Assembly (NCBI GenBank): GCA_017651315.1
Contig: JAGCDE010000034.1
Location: 44,544 to 108,543, forward strand
From: Bacteroidaceae bacterium
GTDB taxonomy: Bacteria > Bacteroidota > Bacteroidia > Bacteroidales > Bacteroidaceae
Length of the DNA: 64,000 nt
Direction: 5' to 3'
Positions 21,146 through 27,150 of the stretch are shown piece after piece. How positions within the stretch are numbered: position 1 is the first letter of the stretch; each line of letters opens with the position of its first letter. Both the position numbers and the translations under genes were made by a program. Under the pieces are notes generated by a model. That model was not told where the DNA came from, made no database searches, and saw only the letters and a list, made by a program, of their open reading frames with translations.

Positions 21146-21169
21146 CGGTATTATATGATATTATATGCT

Positions 21170-22672
21170 ATGAGAAAATATCTCTTATTACTGACCTCCC
21201 TGATAGCGTCATGCGCGTGGGCGCAGCAGAAAGCGACAGGTAACACGGCCGATGGCCGCAGGTACTGCAATCCTCTGCCTATGGTAATAGGTCCGGGCGG
21301 CAACGCATCGGGCGACGTATCCGTGTTCCGTGACGATGACGGCCGGTACTACATGTTCTGCACCGGAGGCGGCGCATGGCACTCGGACAACATGCTGGAC
21401 TGGGACTTCACGCCCGTACAGAGAGTCCCCGTGGCACCCGATGTAGTCAAGTACCACGGCAAATACTACATGTCCGGCAACGACTGCCCGCTCTATGTGG
21501 CCGACAACCCGCTGGGCCCCTACTCCGTCCTGGGCGAATGGGAGAACACCCCCGATGTGGAGGGCGGCTGGAACGAGCCTTTCGACATGCACATCTTCAT
21601 AGACGATGACAAGCCGTACCTTTTCTATTCAGGCCGCGGCATCAGCGGAATATTCGGAGTGCCCCTCGACCCGGAACACCTGAACCGTTTTGCCGATAAG
21701 CCCACCCACCTGTTCAGTTTCAACAGCGACCATGTATGGGAACGTTACGGCGAGATGAACGAATATACCGGAGTGGCTTGGATAGAAGGCCCCTGGCTAT
21801 TCAAATACAAAGGCAGATATTACATGCAGTATTCGGCATCGGGCACCCAATGGAAAACCTACGCCGAGGGCTACTACACCGCCAAGCACCCGCTGGGCCC
21901 CTACACTTACGCCGACAACAGCCCGCTTCTGCGCAAGACCGACGGTCTGGTGACTGGCACAGCCCACGGCAGCGTGGTGGAAGGACCCGACGGCGGTCTG
22001 TGGCAGTTCTACACCATTGTACTCTCCAACCCGCCCGGAGGCCGCCGCATAGGCATGGACCGCATCGATGTGGACAAGAAGGGCCGCTGGTCTGTACAGA
22101 TTACCGACACCCCCCAGCCCGCTCCCGGAGCAAAGAGCGCCAGGGCATCCCTGCCCGTAACCATCAACAAGATGAACGCCATGAACGCTCTCTCCACATT
22201 CTCGTCACAGCAGCCCGGCCGATACGCATCATACGCTGTTGATAACTCCAGCGGTACCGTATGGGAACCCGACCCCGCCGATAAGCAACCCTCAATAACG
22301 ATAGAGCTGTCGCCTGCTACCCGCTTTGACGAGGTCCAGCTTTTTGACGTGGATGCTGTACGCATTATGTTCAACGGAGGCGGCCGCCGCGGATTCGGAG
22401 GCGGAGGCGGCAGTACCGGAACAGTCTATAAATATAAGGTAGATGTATCGCTTGACGGTGACAACTACACCACCGTCCTGGACAAGACCTCCAACACTGA
22501 GCAGCGCAACACCATATTCGAGGAGTTCAAGCCCGTGGAGGCCAGATTCATCCGCCTCACGGTAACCGAATGGCCCGGCACACAGTTAGGCGTGATAGAA
22601 TTCACGGCTTTCGGCCTGCCAGGCCGTACTGAACCTGCCCGTGTGGCAATCCCGCCAGTAATAACCTACTAA
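21170..22672 (+). CDS. Secreted GH43 enzyme with C-terminal F5/8-type (CBM32-like) domain
   Basis: About 500 residues; MRKYLLLLTSLIASCAWAQ is a signal peptide, and the ATG at 21170 fits it better than the in-frame ATG at 21155. The GH43 beta-propeller covers roughly residues 30-320, with GDVSVFRDDDGRYYMF, MHIFIDDDKPYLFYS and the acid glutamate in WIEGPWLFKY. From about residue 345 an F5/8-type C beta-sandwich follows (SYAVDNSSGTVWEP ... FIRLTVTEWPGTQLGVIEF), interrupted by a Gly/Arg-rich loop GGGRRGFGGGGGS. It likely removes arabinose or xylose side chains and leads an operon with the GH54 gene 11 bp downstream. Confidence 0.87.
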   Translation: MRKYLLLLTSLIASCAWAQQKATGNTADGRRYCNPLPMVIGPGGNASGDVSVFRDDDGRYYMFCTGGGAWHSDNMLDWDFTPVQRVPVAPDVVKYHGKYYMSGNDCPLYVADNPLGPYSVLGEWENTPDVEGGWNEPFDMHIFIDDDKPYLFYSGRGISGIFGVPLDPEHLNRFADKPTHLFSFNSDHVWERYGEMNEYTGVAWIEGPWLFKYKGRYYMQYSASGTQWKTYAEGYYTAKHPLGPYTYADNSPLLRKTDGLVTGTAHGSVVEGPDGGLWQFYTIVLSNPPGGRRIGMDRIDVDKKGRWSVQITDTPQPAPGAKSARASLPVTINKMNAMNALSTFSSQQPGRYASYAVDNSSGTVWEPDPADKQPSITIELSPATRFDEVQLFDVDAVRIMFNGGGRRGFGGGGGSTGTVYKYKVDVSLDGDNYTTVLDKTSNTEQRNTIFEEFKPVEARFIRLTVTEWPGTQLGVIEFTAFGLPGRTEPARVAIPPVITY

Positions 22673-22683
22673 CCTATACACTT

Positions 22684-25600
22684 ATGAAAAAAAACAGTAT
22701 TATCCTGCTGTTGGCCGGTGTGGCGGTGGCACCGGTCATGATTGCCACAGTAGCTGTGGCGGCAGGTGACAACCGTATCCCCGAGCGTCCTGAGGGGCCT
22801 TGCGATGTCTATGCAAAAGGCGGCGCACCATGCGTGGCAGCCCACTCCTCTACACGCGCTCTCTACAAGAGCTATGACGGCCCCCTCTATCAGGTCATGC
22901 GCCAGAGCGACGGCAAGACGCTTGACATAGGCGTTGTCCAGCCATCAGCCGGTGATCCCGGAGGTTATGCCGACGCCGAGGCACAGGACCGTTTCTGTAA
23001 GGACACCTACTGCTGGCTTACCGTCATCTATGACCAGTCAGGCAAGGGCAATCACCTGCAGCAGGCCCCGCGCGGAGGATTCAGCGGTCATGCCATGGGC
23101 GGCTTCAACAACGTTCCTATGGCAGACTGGGCACCCGTAACCATCATGGGACACAAGGTATATGGTGTCTTCATCACCGCCGGAATGGGCCTGCGCTGGA
23201 ACGATGCCCACGGCACCGCAGTCGATGACCAGGCCGAAGGCCAGTACTGGGTGATAAACGGACATCACTACAACACCGGCTGCTGCTTTGACTACGGCAA
23301 CGCCGAGACAGACAGCCGCGATGACGGTGACGGCACCATGGAGACTACCTATTTCGGCAACCAGCCTTCCTGGTATCGCGGACAGGCTCCCGGACCATGG
23401 ATCATGACCGACCAGGAGAATAACCTGGTGGGTTGCGTAAATCCGGATCCTAACGACAAGTACTGCGCCGACCTGCCCAGCATCAGCTGGCGTTTCGTTA
23501 CCGCCACAGCCGACGGAGAGCCTCATCACTGGCGTTCCATGGGCGGCAATGCACAGGGCGGTGACCTGCAGATCATGTATGACGGAGTCCGCATCCAGAA
23601 CCCCCGCAGCAGCTATGACCCCATGCGTAAGCAGGGTGCCATCCTGTTGGGTAACGGAGGTGACAACTCCAACGGCTCATCGGGCACATTCTACGAGGGT
23701 GCCATGACAGCTCCGGGCACATTCCCCACCATCGAGACAAACCAGAAGGTCCAGGCGAATGTGGTGGCCGCAGGCTATGACGTGAACACACTGAGCATAA
23801 GCGGTGCCACCAAAGTCAACAAGCCCAACATGCTTCAGACATTCCAGCCCAAGAGCACCGAGAATACAGCAGTGACATTCACCAACACCACCGGAGCCGA
23901 GATCAACGACCTTGAGATCAGTCTCGTCACTCCCCGCGGCTGGAAGGCTGTTGTTGAGGGCGGCAAGCAGAAAGTCCGCAAGGTGGGTTACACAGTCGCT
24001 CCCGGTCAGACTGTAGTGGTGACGTTCACCGTCACATCGGGCAAGAAGCCTTTCAACGGTGACCTTATAGCCAAGGCTCAGTGGAGCGGACGCCAGGGCA
24101 AGACCGTATGGACGGCATCCGAGAAGGTCCGCAACGTGGCTCCCGTCAAGATAAACGAGTTCCGCATTGCCGACGGCAGCGGTAACCAGACCAACTCTTT
24201 CATTGAGCTTTACAACGCCGGTGACAAGGCTGTCAGCATATCAGGCTGGACACTCACCCACCATGCGGTGAACATCCCCTACTTCTCATCCATAAAGATT
24301 CCATCGGGTACTAAACTGGCTCCCAAGGGGTTCTATCTGCTCGGAATCAGCAACTCCGGACTCTCGGTCGATGCAGTAAAGGGTGACAATGTAATTTATG
24401 TGCGTGACGTGCGTGGCATAGAGGCAGGCCATGAGATAACCATAGGTACCGGAAGCAACGCCGAGACCCGCCGCGTGGCGAAGGTCATAAGCCCGCAACA
24501 GGCTGCTCCTCAGCAGGGCCAGCCCGGACGTGGAGGTATGGGGTTCAACGGCAATCCCACCACGCTGTGGCAACCGCTGCCAGAAGGACCGGTCATCACC
24601 ATTCCGGCAGGCTCGAACAATATTCCGGTCACCAGCACAGCAGGTTTCCAGGTAGGTCAGAAAATGGCCATCGGATACGGTTCGACCTATCCCGCAGTTT
24701 CCAACTCGCTTGAGAAATACGAGGTTGTTACCGTAACCAATGTCGGTAAGCCAGGCACACAGGCATGGCTCTCCGCCGATGCAAAGAAGGGTGACACCAA
24801 CATCAAGGTTTCCAGCACCCAGAACATCACCGCCGGTGACAGGATCCGTCTTGACATTGAGAGTGAGGGTCATGGAGTTGAATGGGTAACAGTGAAGAGT
24901 GTGGGCACCCAGTCATCACGCAGCACCTTTGGCGGCCCGCTCGGCCCCAATGACAATCCCGGTACCGGCCTGGAGTTAGAGGCGCCGCTCAAGTTCGACC
25001 ACTCCTCGAACATGCCGTTCGCAGTCAACGGAACAGGCATCACATTCGAGCCTGCCACCAAGTATGACCACTCCAGCAACGAGCCCGTGCTCCCGCTGGT
25101 CTATGCCATAGAACTTGACAAGGCTCTCTCCAAATCACACGCCATCAATGACGTGGTGCTTGACCCGCAGGTCATGAACGCAGGCTATCACGGCAGTGTT
25201 GAGGCCGACCTCCTCTTCGGCGGTCCCACACTGGACGCTTCCCGTGGCAACATGACCCTCCGCACCGACAAGGGCCTCATAGCCGATGCCCTGAACTACG
25301 GCGGTCTTGTGGATCCCTGGCTCAGCGAAGGCTATCATGAGGATGCCGGTGCAGGTGCCGACGGTTCGTATGCACGTGTCCCGCAGGGAGCACGCGGAGG
25401 AGGCTTCGGAGCACCCGCTGCCACTCAGCCGGCAGGTCCCGACCTGAGCACGTTCCGCTATCCCGACGGATTTGATACCGATGACAACAAGCTGGATTTC
25501 CGCACCGGACAGGCCATGACCATCGCCGCACCCGTAAAGGCTGGCGCAGACAACATCAAGGTGACTTCCGTACAGGGTCTCTCCATCGGCCAGGTCATGT

Positions 25601-26001
25601 ATCTCGGTTCCGGCAACTCGGTTGAGAAAGTGAAGATAGCCACTGTGGGAACCGCCGGTGCCACCACCATCTCGGCCGATGCACCCAAGGGTGAGGTCCG
25701 GATAGCCGTAGCCGGTGCACAAGGTTTCCAGACAGGACAGACTGTACAGATAGGATCCGGGACATACGTGATAAGTGCCGTACAGGCTGCACCCCGCCGT
25801 GGATTCGGTGGCCGTGGCGGCCAGCAGCCCCAGCAGCCCGACTATATCACCCTCGCCTCAGGACTCAACGAGAATGTTCCGGCCGGAACATGGCTGACCG
25901 GCAGCGGAATCACTCTCGGAGCGCCCGTTACGAAAAGCCACGGTGCCGGCGATGCATTCACGGCTACGATGTCTTCTCCCGGAAAACCGAACCTCCAATA
26001 A
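22684..26001 (+). CDS. Large multidomain GH54 alpha-L-arabinofuranosidase
   Basis: An 1105-residue secreted protein. Residues about 38-372 are a GH54 catalytic domain (GPCDVYAKGGAPCVAAHSS ... GGDNSNGSSGTFYEG). Glu245 (TDQENNL) and Asp327 (GGDNSNG) align with the nucleophile and acid/base known from fungal AbfB. Cys40/50, Cys105/110 and Cys200/201 match the three fungal disulfides in spacing. Then follow a NEW3-like domain (about 396-460), a lamin-tail-like domain (INEFRIADGSGNQTN, about 489-565) and several copies of a short module such as NIKVTSVQGLSIGQVMYLG with Gly/Arg/Pro/Gln-rich loops. The fungal-type CBM42 is absent. It releases arabinose from arabinan or arabinoxylan. It sits mid-operon, 24 bp before a VKOR-thioredoxin gene. 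Confidence 0.88.
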   Translation: MKKNSIILLLAGVAVAPVMIATVAVAAGDNRIPERPEGPCDVYAKGGAPCVAAHSSTRALYKSYDGPLYQVMRQSDGKTLDIGVVQPSAGDPGGYADAEAQDRFCKDTYCWLTVIYDQSGKGNHLQQAPRGGFSGHAMGGFNNVPMADWAPVTIMGHKVYGVFITAGMGLRWNDAHGTAVDDQAEGQYWVINGHHYNTGCCFDYGNAETDSRDDGDGTMETTYFGNQPSWYRGQAPGPWIMTDQENNLVGCVNPDPNDKYCADLPSISWRFVTATADGEPHHWRSMGGNAQGGDLQIMYDGVRIQNPRSSYDPMRKQGAILLGNGGDNSNGSSGTFYEGAMTAPGTFPTIETNQKVQANVVAAGYDVNTLSISGATKVNKPNMLQTFQPKSTENTAVTFTNTTGAEINDLEISLVTPRGWKAVVEGGKQKVRKVGYTVAPGQTVVVTFTVTSGKKPFNGDLIAKAQWSGRQGKTVWTASEKVRNVAPVKINEFRIADGSGNQTNSFIELYNAGDKAVSISGWTLTHHAVNIPYFSSIKIPSGTKLAPKGFYLLGISNSGLSVDAVKGDNVIYVRDVRGIEAGHEITIGTGSNAETRRVAKVISPQQAAPQQGQPGRGGMGFNGNPTTLWQPLPEGPVITIPAGSNNIPVTSTAGFQVGQKMAIGYGSTYPAVSNSLEKYEVVTVTNVGKPGTQAWLSADAKKGDTNIKVSSTQNITAGDRIRLDIESEGHGVEWVTVKSVGTQSSRSTFGGPLGPNDNPGTGLELEAPLKFDHSSNMPFAVNGTGITFEPATKYDHSSNEPVLPLVYAIELDKALSKSHAINDVVLDPQVMNAGYHGSVEADLLFGGPTLDASRGNMTLRTDKGLIADALNYGGLVDPWLSEGYHEDAGAGADGSYARVPQGARGGGFGAPAATQPAGPDLSTFRYPDGFDTDDNKLDFRTGQAMTIAAPVKAGADNIKVTSVQGLSIGQVMYLGSGNSVEKVKIATVGTAGATTISADAPKGEVRIAVAGAQGFQTGQTVQIGSGTYVISAVQAAPRRGFGGRGGQQPQQPDYITLASGLNENVPAGTWLTGSGITLGAPVTKSHGAGDAFTATMSSPGKPNLQ

Positions 26002-26025
26002 CAGACCGGTTTGGAAAGGCAAGAC

Positions 26026-27150
26026 ATGATACTCAAAAGGACAATGGTGACACTTGCCGCCATTGTCCTTGTCTTGAGTATTGTCCTGTGCGTCCACTCC
26101 ATCTCCGGCTTCGGACTGACAGGATGCAGCCAAGGCTCGTCCTGTAACCAGGTCTTGGGAAGCCGCTGGTCATTCCTGCTCGGAAGCATACCTGTCAGCG
26201 CATTGGCAACAGGTGCATATCTGATGCTTCTTTCATGCCTGCTGCTTTTGGACAGGCCAGGGACCGAACCGGAAACCAAACGTCTGCTCTATCACCTGAC
26301 ACTCTTCCTGAGCGGTGCCATTGCCGGCAGCGCCGTATGGTTCATCTTCCTCCAGCACCACATCATCCATGCATTCTGCCCCTATTGCATGACCGCCCAC
26401 ATACTCGGCATAATCCTCGCCATACTCTGCATCGTTTTCTGTGCAGGGAGGAAAGCCGGAAGGCGGATCCTGTACATAATGCTTGGATTGGTGGCAGCAG
26501 CGTCAATAGCGGTCTTGCAGCTGCTCACAACCCCGAGGAGCCTCTCCGAGAGAGGTTTTATCGAAGAACAGCTCATACTGCCCGACCCTGCGGAGATGCC
26601 GGTCATAGGCAATCCGAATGCGGAGCATCTGATAACCCTGCTGTTTGACTGGCAATGTTCGCACTGCCGCAAGCTCCACCTGATGCTTCCGGAAGTGACA
26701 GCCCTCATGAATGACAGCGTGGCGTTCGTCTGCTGCCCTGTGGCCTTGAGTCAGGAGTGCAATCCCTACATCCCGCCAGGACCAGATTCTTTCCAAGGTT
26801 CATGTGACCTGTTACGTATAGGTATGGCGCTTTGGAACACCGACCGCAAGGCGTTCAGGCAGTACGAAGAGTGGTATTTCAGTGCAGACCCGAAGAAAGG
26901 GTGGTATCCTCCATCGGCAGAAGAGGCATTGCGTAAAGCCGCCGCCCTCGCAGGAGAATCCAGGATGGAATCATCCATGAAGAGCGGCAGCATAGACAAA
27001 TACATATCCCAGATAACTGAGCTCTTCGGCAGGACCTCGATAAGAGGCCTCGGAGCCATTCCCCGGCTCATCTACAACGGGCAGGTCATGATTCCTGATG
27101 CCGACACCCCCGCCGATATGGCCGGCCTTGTCAGTTCACTCATACAATAG
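26026..27150 (+). CDS. VKOR-thioredoxin fusion, periplasmic disulfide-bond catalyst
   Basis: A 374-residue protein. The N-terminal half has four or more membrane helices and the VKOR cysteines: Cys34/Cys40 in TGCSQGSSCNQ and the redox pair Cys118/Cys121 in FCPYCM. The C-terminal half is a thioredoxin/DsbA-like domain with WQCSHC (Cys211/Cys214) and a cis-proline segment GLGAIPRLIYNG. Such fusions pass electrons from substrate thiols to quinone, making disulfides in the periplasm, and replace DsbA/DsbB. The ATG at 26026 was chosen over a TTG at 26011. It follows the cysteine-rich GH54 gene by 24 bp, suggesting it oxidises that enzyme. Confidence 0.9.
   Translation: MILKRTMVTLAAIVLVLSIVLCVHSISGFGLTGCSQGSSCNQVLGSRWSFLLGSIPVSALATGAYLMLLSCLLLLDRPGTEPETKRLLYHLTLFLSGAIAGSAVWFIFLQHHIIHAFCPYCMTAHILGIILAILCIVFCAGRKAGRRILYIMLGLVAAASIAVLQLLTTPRSLSERGFIEEQLILPDPAEMPVIGNPNAEHLITLLFDWQCSHCRKLHLMLPEVTALMNDSVAFVCCPVALSQECNPYIPPGPDSFQGSCDLLRIGMALWNTDRKAFRQYEEWYFSADPKKGWYPPSAEEALRKAAALAGESRMESSMKSGSIDKYISQITELFGRTSIRGLGAIPRLIYNGQVMIPDADTPADMAGLVSSLIQ

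Follow-up and report, generated by a model that had tools for sequence, protein, structure and literature searches.

The GH54 locus and its products

In the window, the 64,000-nucleotide stretch of Bacteroidaceae DNA analysed here, a GH54 gene (22684..26001, forward strand) is followed on the same strand by a gene for a VKOR-thioredoxin fusion (26026..27150), with 24 nt between the GH54 stop and the VKOR ATG. Both open reading frames and their Pfam matches agree with the adjacency, 24 bp apart, described in an earlier sequence-only reading. A GH43-type glycosidase gene with an F5/8C domain (21155..22672, forward strand; PF04616 97.4 bits, PF00754 63.2 bits) ends 11 nt before GH54 and is a probable operon partner of it; when neighbours were clustered, a similar gene turned up at just 5 of the 32 VKOR-linked loci, each from Bacteroidota or from the window itself.

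The GH54 protein (1105 aa) has an N-terminus that looks like a signal peptide by eye. Its catalytic domain (residues 39-365; 22798..23778, forward strand) matches PF09206 (ArabFuran-catal) at 394 bits (5.3e-118; curated cut-off 25) over profile positions 1-314 of 315, and is followed on the same strand by a NEW3 (NPCBM-associated) domain (23854..24078; PF10633 28.5 bits) and a Lamin tail domain (24136..24357; PF00932 47.9 bits). All eight cysteines of the protein lie in the catalytic domain and form four putative pairs, 40/50, 105/110, the vicinal 200/201 and 251/261. The first three correspond in alignment to cysteines of fungal AbfB (6sxt, 1wd3; E ~1e-102) at the same spacings of 10, 5 and 1, as had been proposed from the sequence; the fourth, overlooked at that stage, is missing from the fungal sequence in the alignment. 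We take the three aligned AbfB pairs to be its known disulfides. The putative nucleophile Glu245 (DQENNL) and acid/base Asp327 (GNGGDNSNG) align with AbfB stretches (6sxt, 1wd3, 6sxr, the last showing Q at the aligned Glu position), and these positions presumably correspond to the catalytic residues of AbfB. Glu and Asp are the residue types tabulated for GH54 catalysis in PMC6887791. Thus, the catalytic domain, three cysteine pairs and the aligned Glu/Asp are common to the window protein and A. kawachii AbfB (PDB 1wd3), whereas the fourth pair and the NEW3 and lamin-tail domains are additional in the window protein, which has no CBM42 match; in fungal AbfB, an arabinose-binding CBM42 follows the catalytic domain at the place of these other domains (PMC6887791).

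Among 114 aligned GH54 rows, the vicinal pair 200/201 was retained in every one, and cysteine pairs mostly vanished as whole units, with one-sided breakage in 4 rows. The window GH54, a plant-fibre enzyme of a gut bacterium, probably depends on disulfide bonds.

The VKOR-thioredoxin fusion (374 aa; cysteine pairs 34/40, 118/121, 211/214 and 245/260) consists of a VKOR membrane domain (residues 7-134; 26044..26427, forward strand; PF07884 57.8 bits, 1.7e-15, cut-off 27.5) and a thioredoxin domain with a CSHC motif (residues 192-364; 26599..27117, forward strand; PF13462, Thioredoxin_4, 31 bits, 3.5e-7, cut-off 23.2); hydropathy analysis gave six peaks within residues 8-166, two of them overlapping. 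With a VKOR domain over the cut-off, four catalytic cysteines and a C-terminal thioredoxin CxxC, the protein belongs with the VKORs that carry a fused thioredoxin. The CxxxxxC, CPYC and CSHC pairs noted earlier as intact (C34-x5-C40, C118PYC121, C211SHC214) were unchanged in all 33 VKORs of the alignment, linked or related, and the same holds for the extra thioredoxin-domain pair C245/C260; Pro346 in the same domain is also invariant and is a cis-Pro candidate. The fusion is a membrane protein that probably makes the disulfide bonds of GH54.

Comparison with known proteins by phmmer revealed matches of the VKOR part (residues 10-158) to the Synechococcus VKOR-thioredoxin fusion (PDB 3kp9, 4nv5, 4nv6; 1e-5 to 1.5e-4), which likewise combines a VKOR domain bearing CxxC with a fused thioredoxin domain. 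However, the thioredoxin part of the window protein lies outside this match, carries the extra invariant 245/260 pair and is weakly similar to DsbC-type isomerases (protein disulfide isomerase II 4npb, E 0.0059; DsbC 1eej, E 0.049). We know of no dedicated client of the Synechococcus fusion. Bacteroidales Peptidase_C39-VKOR-thioredoxin proteins also share the VKOR and thioredoxin domains, but differ in a C39-like N-terminal domain, seen in the single protein scanned (L048), and this class scored below 40 bits or not at all with the GH54-linked VKOR model. A clostridial VKOR-DsbA fusion is described as having complemented a dsbA dsbB mutant of E. coli (PMC12453122).

Linkage of GH54 and VKOR across bacterial phyla

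A scan of bacterial genomes gave at least 512 GH54 matches, the nearest 80 of which, from at least eight phyla, made up the linkage sample. After 16 loci with less than 1200 nt following GH54 were left out, 64 had room for a next gene, and in 29 of these a VKOR was the next gene on the same strand, with ORF-frame gaps of -85 to +150 nt. Among these nearest loci with room, the adjacent VKOR was present in Bacteroidota (19/27), Planctomycetota (6/6), Verrucomicrobiota (3/3) and Ignavibacteriota (1/1), and absent from Acidobacteriota (0/19) and Pseudomonadota (0/4); at least 5 of the 29 linked loci come from the window's own genus. Chance adjacency of the two genes was rejected on these counts. 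One linked locus (L139) contains a VKOR of different architecture, fused to a BD-FAE-like esterase and overlapping GH54. No other neighbour family was found in more than 10 of the 80 loci, the commonest (10/80) occurring on both strands, and the genes around the pair turn over while the pair persists.

The sequence-only reading would have been undermined if most bacterial GH54 homologues had no VKOR neighbour, and this is partly the case, since 35 of the 64 nearest loci with room, including all 19 from Acidobacteriota, lack an adjacent VKOR. The Acidobacteriota rows of the GH54 alignment nevertheless retain all eight cysteines, and thus these cysteines need no adjacent VKOR.

Co-occurrence in the genus, the order and the window's own genome

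Within the genus, GH54 type A was present in 23 of 37 genomes, and VKOR in 21 of these 23 and in none of the 14 without type A (Fisher p 2e-8, with kinship and genome completeness uncorrected). In both type-A genomes lacking VKOR (G592, G606), the contig ends inside GH54. The GH54 typing of G601, G594, G592, G606, G534 and G610 was checked by comparison with full-length sequences of types A, B and C. By coordinates, the two genes adjoin in 18 of the 21 VKOR-bearing genus genomes; beyond these, the VKOR of G534 adjoins a C-terminal fragment of GH54-A at a contig end. One genome (G595, 81% complete) contains a type-C GH54 with six of the eight cysteines, and no VKOR was found in it.

In the order sample of 393 genomes, the subfamily VKOR (>500 bits, with a model whose seeds included the sequences of the three positive genomes) was found in 3 genomes, the same 3 with a full-length GH54, and in none of the other 390; the other VKOR loci of this search scored below 40 bits or not at all, and one partial GH54 match was seen (G244). 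The phylum sample of 395 genomes contained one full GH54, the window's own, after exclusion of five matches covering about 80-105 profile positions at 28-39 bits. The proposal that the two genes were selected together is therefore well supported, as they form a two-gene unit in four phyla and VKOR tracks GH54 type A in the genus and the order sample.

The window's own genome (83% complete) contains one VKOR and gave no match to DsbB (PF02600). Searches for VKOR and DsbB in whole genomes, which covered 50 of the 80 nearest loci, detected neither in seven GH54 genomes (KSB1 G622, unassigned G638, Micromonospora G662 and Acidobacteriota G645, G654, G657 and G661); in a Bacteroidales genome (G639, locus L120), VKOR is on a different contig among unrelated genes. 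The genome of Aeoliella straminimaris, a cultivated GH54-VKOR host (L102), contains two VKORs besides the linked one. A home-made predictor marked 102 of the 306 genes called in 440 kb of the window's own genome as exported; of those with 1-8 cysteines, 45 have an odd and 33 an even number. Among the predicted lipoproteins taken by themselves, even numbers are slightly ahead (14 vs 9).

Origin of the pair

The idea that GH54 is a mainly fungal, foreign enzyme was not supported by the scan. Bacterial matches number at least 512, and the nearest 80, from at least eight phyla, are separated by a long branch from the sole fungal sequence used, in a rapidly built tree many of whose forks lack support; recent import from fungi was rejected since GH54 is common among bacteria and their sequences lie at a great distance from that one. 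A co-tree test, run on 35 GH54-VKOR pairs minus four (duplicates L008 and L178, type-B L173 and L139 with its odd architecture), revealed a correlation between the GH54 and VKOR trees (Mantel r 0.48, a value reached by none of 5000 permutations, which ignored relatedness). This agrees with the suggestion that the genes moved together, but VKOR is far more diverged than GH54 (in 22 loci whose GH54 is 76-95% identical to that of the window, VKOR identity is only 32-57%), and VKOR sequences sort largely by phylum. Recent joint transfer was thus rejected as the whole story; divergence and phylum sorting fit old joint inheritance better, and the pairing looks old, although transfer may have played a part.

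Discussion

Gene order, motif conservation, cross-phylum linkage and co-occurrence, all observed here, point to GH54 and the fusion as a client-dedicated oxidative-folding unit with a quinone-linked thiol oxidase, a reading to which we give a probability of about three in four. GH54 would be exported unfolded, and as the main client it would have its cysteine pairs 40/50, 105/110, 251/261 and vicinal 200/201 oxidised, rather than reduced, by the periplasmic CSHC thioredoxin domain. The VKOR domain would then use its loop pair 34/40 to re-oxidise the thioredoxin domain, and from CPYC (118/121) the electrons would go to a quinone in the membrane, presumably menaquinone. The lack of a detected DsbB, and of any hint that the host's exported proteins generally form disulfides, could explain why the catalyst adjoins its client. 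Evenly poised, in our judgement, is the stronger claim of a single-client system. On this view, bacteria without a general disulfide pathway (mostly anaerobes, judging by their habitat and lineage) would maintain a VKOR-thioredoxin, coupled to menaquinone and reserved for the oxidation of a single exported glycosidase, whose vicinal pair, never lost, would be among the targets; catalyst and client would be acquired or lost as a pair.

The main competitor, possible though clearly less probable than the dedicated unit, is that VKOR-thioredoxin acts at the level of the locus on several exported enzymes of plant-fibre breakdown (GH54, carboxylesterases and others) and adjoins GH54 because this is the commonest of them. 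In three genomes (L096/L106, L097/L098, L103/L167), VKOR adjoins carboxylesterases (that of L098 so called by its likeness to the neighbour of L106) and GH54 lies 9-19 kb away on the same contig; together with the esterase fusion of L139, the esterase-adjoining VKORs (L106, L098, L167) suggest that GH54 is possibly not the sole client. The ceiling of 10 in 80 loci for every non-VKOR family means, however, that esterases are not generally conserved neighbours.

A sole disulfide system serving many exported clients, with the GH54 adjacency incidental, would agree with the single VKOR and undetected DsbB of the window's own genome, but it is unlikely given that VKOR is missing in each of the 14 genus genomes that lack GH54-A, that predicted exported proteins of the 440-kb sample show no overall excess of even cysteine counts and that the adjacency is maintained across phyla. 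Less likely still is hitchhiking, in which two genes joined once have since been transferred or inherited together although no function connects them. GH54 proteins of different phyla share 76-85% identity with that of the window, which is compatible with transfer, but neighbouring genes change around the pair, all eight paired cysteines of VKOR are invariant despite its divergence, and in L139 the VKOR that overlaps GH54 is of another architecture.

A dedicated GH54-VKOR unit would have a known parallel in DsbL/DsbI, in which DsbI is DsbB-like, DsbL is DsbA-like and the genes adjoin the arylsulfate sulfotransferase gene. This thiol oxidase system of uropathogenic E. coli and Salmonella is described as dedicated to the periplasmic arylsulfate sulfotransferase (PMC12453122), one oxidase system for one exported enzyme as proposed here, and the oxidase gene likewise adjoins the proposed client gene in the 29 linked loci and 18 genus genomes counted above. 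In contrast to DsbL/DsbI, a single fusion would fill both roles and the client would be a glycosidase; the window oxidase belongs to PF07884 and not to PF02600, the family of DsbB/DsbI. By analogy, GH54-VKOR may work like DsbL/DsbI, not as a member or homologue of it. No paper naming GH54 and VKOR together was found in the open-licence literature searched, a scope outside which most subscription papers fall.

Obligate anaerobes are described as tending to keep cysteines out of exported proteins (PMC12453122). If true, the proposed unit would explain how anaerobic fibre degraders can use a disulfide-dependent enzyme, and it would propose a client for a VKOR subfamily. The VKOR-client pair would become testable in E. 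coli dsb mutants, and co-expression with its VKOR is suggested for recombinant bacterial GH54.

Conservation of the GH54–VKOR gene pair

The window (C30:44544–108543) belongs to a 2.69-Mb genome, 83% complete, whose genus is probably Candidatus Colenecus (Bacteroidaceae); locus L090 of our genome scans, Candidatus Colenecus caballi, shares the contig number and coordinates of its VKOR with the same-genus genome G506. Three consecutive genes share one strand: a GH43 gene with F5/8C (ending at 22672), GH54 (22684–26001) and the VKOR-thioredoxin fusion (26026–27150). The GH54 protein is ordered as catalytic, NEW3 and lamin-tail (Pfam) domains, and its final ~550 residues gave no Pfam match at E 0.1; short GQ-xx-IGSG-like segments appear by eye to be repeated there (24358–26001).

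The genome scan confirmed at least 512 GH54 relatives, and the 80 nearest were kept for neighbourhood counts. The sequence-only reading took the pairing to suggest that the two genes moved or were selected together, and the counts bear this out in part: the next same-strand gene was VKOR in 29 of the 80 loci, but 35 had no adjacent VKOR despite room for it (at least 1200 nt after GH54), and 16 ended too soon to show the next gene. Among loci with room, VKOR was adjacent in Bacteroidota (19/27), Planctomycetota (6/6), Verrucomicrobiota (3/3) and Ignavibacteriota (1/1), and in none from Acidobacteriota (0/19), Pseudomonadota (0/4), Actinomycetota (0/1), Gemmatimonadota (0/1) or unassigned sources (0/2), the phylum labels being those of sequence records whose bins are possibly mixed. 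At least 5 of the 29 linked loci come from the window's own genus (L087, L088, L090, L091, L100). The next commonest neighbour family (clustered within 5 kb) reached 10/80 loci with both strands counted, and other neighbours turn over. GH54–VKOR is a real, conserved gene pair. A second GH54 lies downstream of VKOR in L091, L095, L100 and L111. In L178 and L100 (genome G610) and L082 (G611), type-A GH54, the sequence type found in the window, is broken close to its N-terminus so that it occupies two reading frames; VKOR is present downstream. Either a genomic frameshift or an assembly error would account for the break.

Eight Bacteroidota loci with room were non-adjacent. L096/L106 and L097/L098 represent two genomes in which VKOR lies on the same contig and adjoins a carboxylesterase, and in L103 it lies ~19 kb off, among carboxylesterases. 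VKOR adjoins a type-B GH54 in the genome of L105 and another type-A copy in that of L107; for L120 it is on a different contig with unrelated genes around. The same VKOR subfamily was seen next to carboxylesterases (PF00135), with GH54 kilobases off, at L167:7113–13089 and L106:17892–20595. At L139:12700–14280, counted among the 29 linked loci, VKOR-thioredoxin is fused to a BD-FAE/carboxylesterase-like hydrolase and the start of the fusion overlaps the GH54 stop, so VKOR is tied to fibre enzymes in a second arrangement as well.

Co-occurrence in genus, family and order

Analysis of 37 genomes of the genus revealed GH54 in 26 and VKOR in 21. Type A was present in 23/37, including all 21 VKOR genomes (G534 being typed from a C-terminal GH54 fragment only), and the contigs of the two type-A genomes without VKOR, G592 and G606, stop inside the GH54 gene. 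VKOR was found in 0/14 genomes without type A (Fisher p 2e-8, uncorrected for relatedness and incompleteness). The two genes were adjacent by coordinates in 18/21 VKOR-bearing genomes; in G534 the GH54 fragment abuts VKOR at the contig end, in G594 the GH54 contig breaks off <190 nt past the stop codon, with VKOR beginning at another contig's edge, and in G596 VKOR adjoins type B.

GH54 occurred in 9/201 genomes of the family sample, all of the window's genus and all with VKOR; VKOR was present in 17 more genomes, and the VKORs of those re-scored belong to another class. VKOR was found in 20/393 genomes of the order sample, with the linked subfamily (>500 bits) only in the three that carry full-length GH54 and whose sequences were among the seeds of the linked-VKOR model; the other VKORs scored <40 bits or gave no match to this model. 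Many of the other-class VKORs of Bacteroidales (L048, order loci L186–L208) have open frames of 500–570 aa, and L048, the one scanned, contains a weak C39-peptidase domain.

Cysteines and history of the pair

All eight GH54 cysteines (40, 50, 105, 110, 200, 201, 251, 261) lie within the catalytic domain; six align with the fungal enzyme, and 251/261 do not. In an alignment of 114 rows, with the window's sequence counted twice, 87 rows retained all eight and 114/114 kept 200/201, and losses mostly removed whole pairs: 12 rows lack both 105/110 and 251/261, seven lack 251/261 alone and four lack 40/50 alone. In another four rows a pair is broken on one side. The 12 rows are the genus's type B (L002, L018 and ten more), and all 12 retain 40/50 and the vicinal pair. 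Losses of 40/50 and of 251/261 were seen again in a second alignment (n=47, largely the same loci). This concerted loss supports 40–50, 105–110 and 251–261 as putative bonded pairs.

Four cysteine pairs of the window's VKOR-thioredoxin protein were invariant in 33/33 aligned relatives, which are 32–57% identical to it: the loop pair 34/40, CPYC 118/121, CSHC 211/214 and an additional pair, 245/260. Among solved structures the nearest is that of the Synechococcus VKOR-thioredoxin (E 1e-5; match over the VKOR part), and the thioredoxin part weakly matches DsbC-type isomerases.

In the GH54 tree a broad type-A clade stands apart from a second clade, of types B and C, and the fungal sequence is distant from both. 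The GH54 and VKOR trees are correlated (31 pairs; Mantel r 0.48; 0/5000 permutations as high). The type-A clade has a split, with weak support, and VKOR-linked members lie on either side of it, Opitutae being on the Acidobacteriota side; it is therefore plausible that the pairing arose early and was later lost in Acidobacteriota and Pseudomonadota.

Disulfide machinery in the hosts

A search of the window's genome, 83% complete, found no DsbB. DsbB was present in 7/57 genomes searched (6 over the cut-off), of which four are from Pseudomonadota, two from Gemmatimonadota and one, with a weak match, from Bacteroidales. VKOR was present in 39/50 GH54 genomes searched. The proposal of a private oxidase serving hosts without DsbB meets a counterpoint in seven GH54 genomes in which neither VKOR nor DsbB was detected on searching; either such hosts have another route or their genome sequences lack some genes. 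In a 440-kb sample of the window's genome, a home-made predictor marked 102/306 called genes as likely to be exported. Odd cysteine counts (45) outnumbered even ones (33) among predicted exported proteins with 1–8 cysteines, and a further 15 had nine or more; the signal peptidase I type had 19 even and 36 odd counts, and the lipoprotein type 14 and 9. A surplus of even counts is the published sign of general oxidative folding, according to PMC12453122.

A query of the open-licence literature for 'GH54' and 'VKOR' together found no paper. A dedicated oxidative-folding unit is the best explanation of GH54–VKOR, with a probability of roughly three in four. DsbL/DsbI provides a precedent for a dedicated oxidase, as described in PMC12453122. 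The GH54 unit would be a variation on this kind of system, with VKOR in the place of DsbB.
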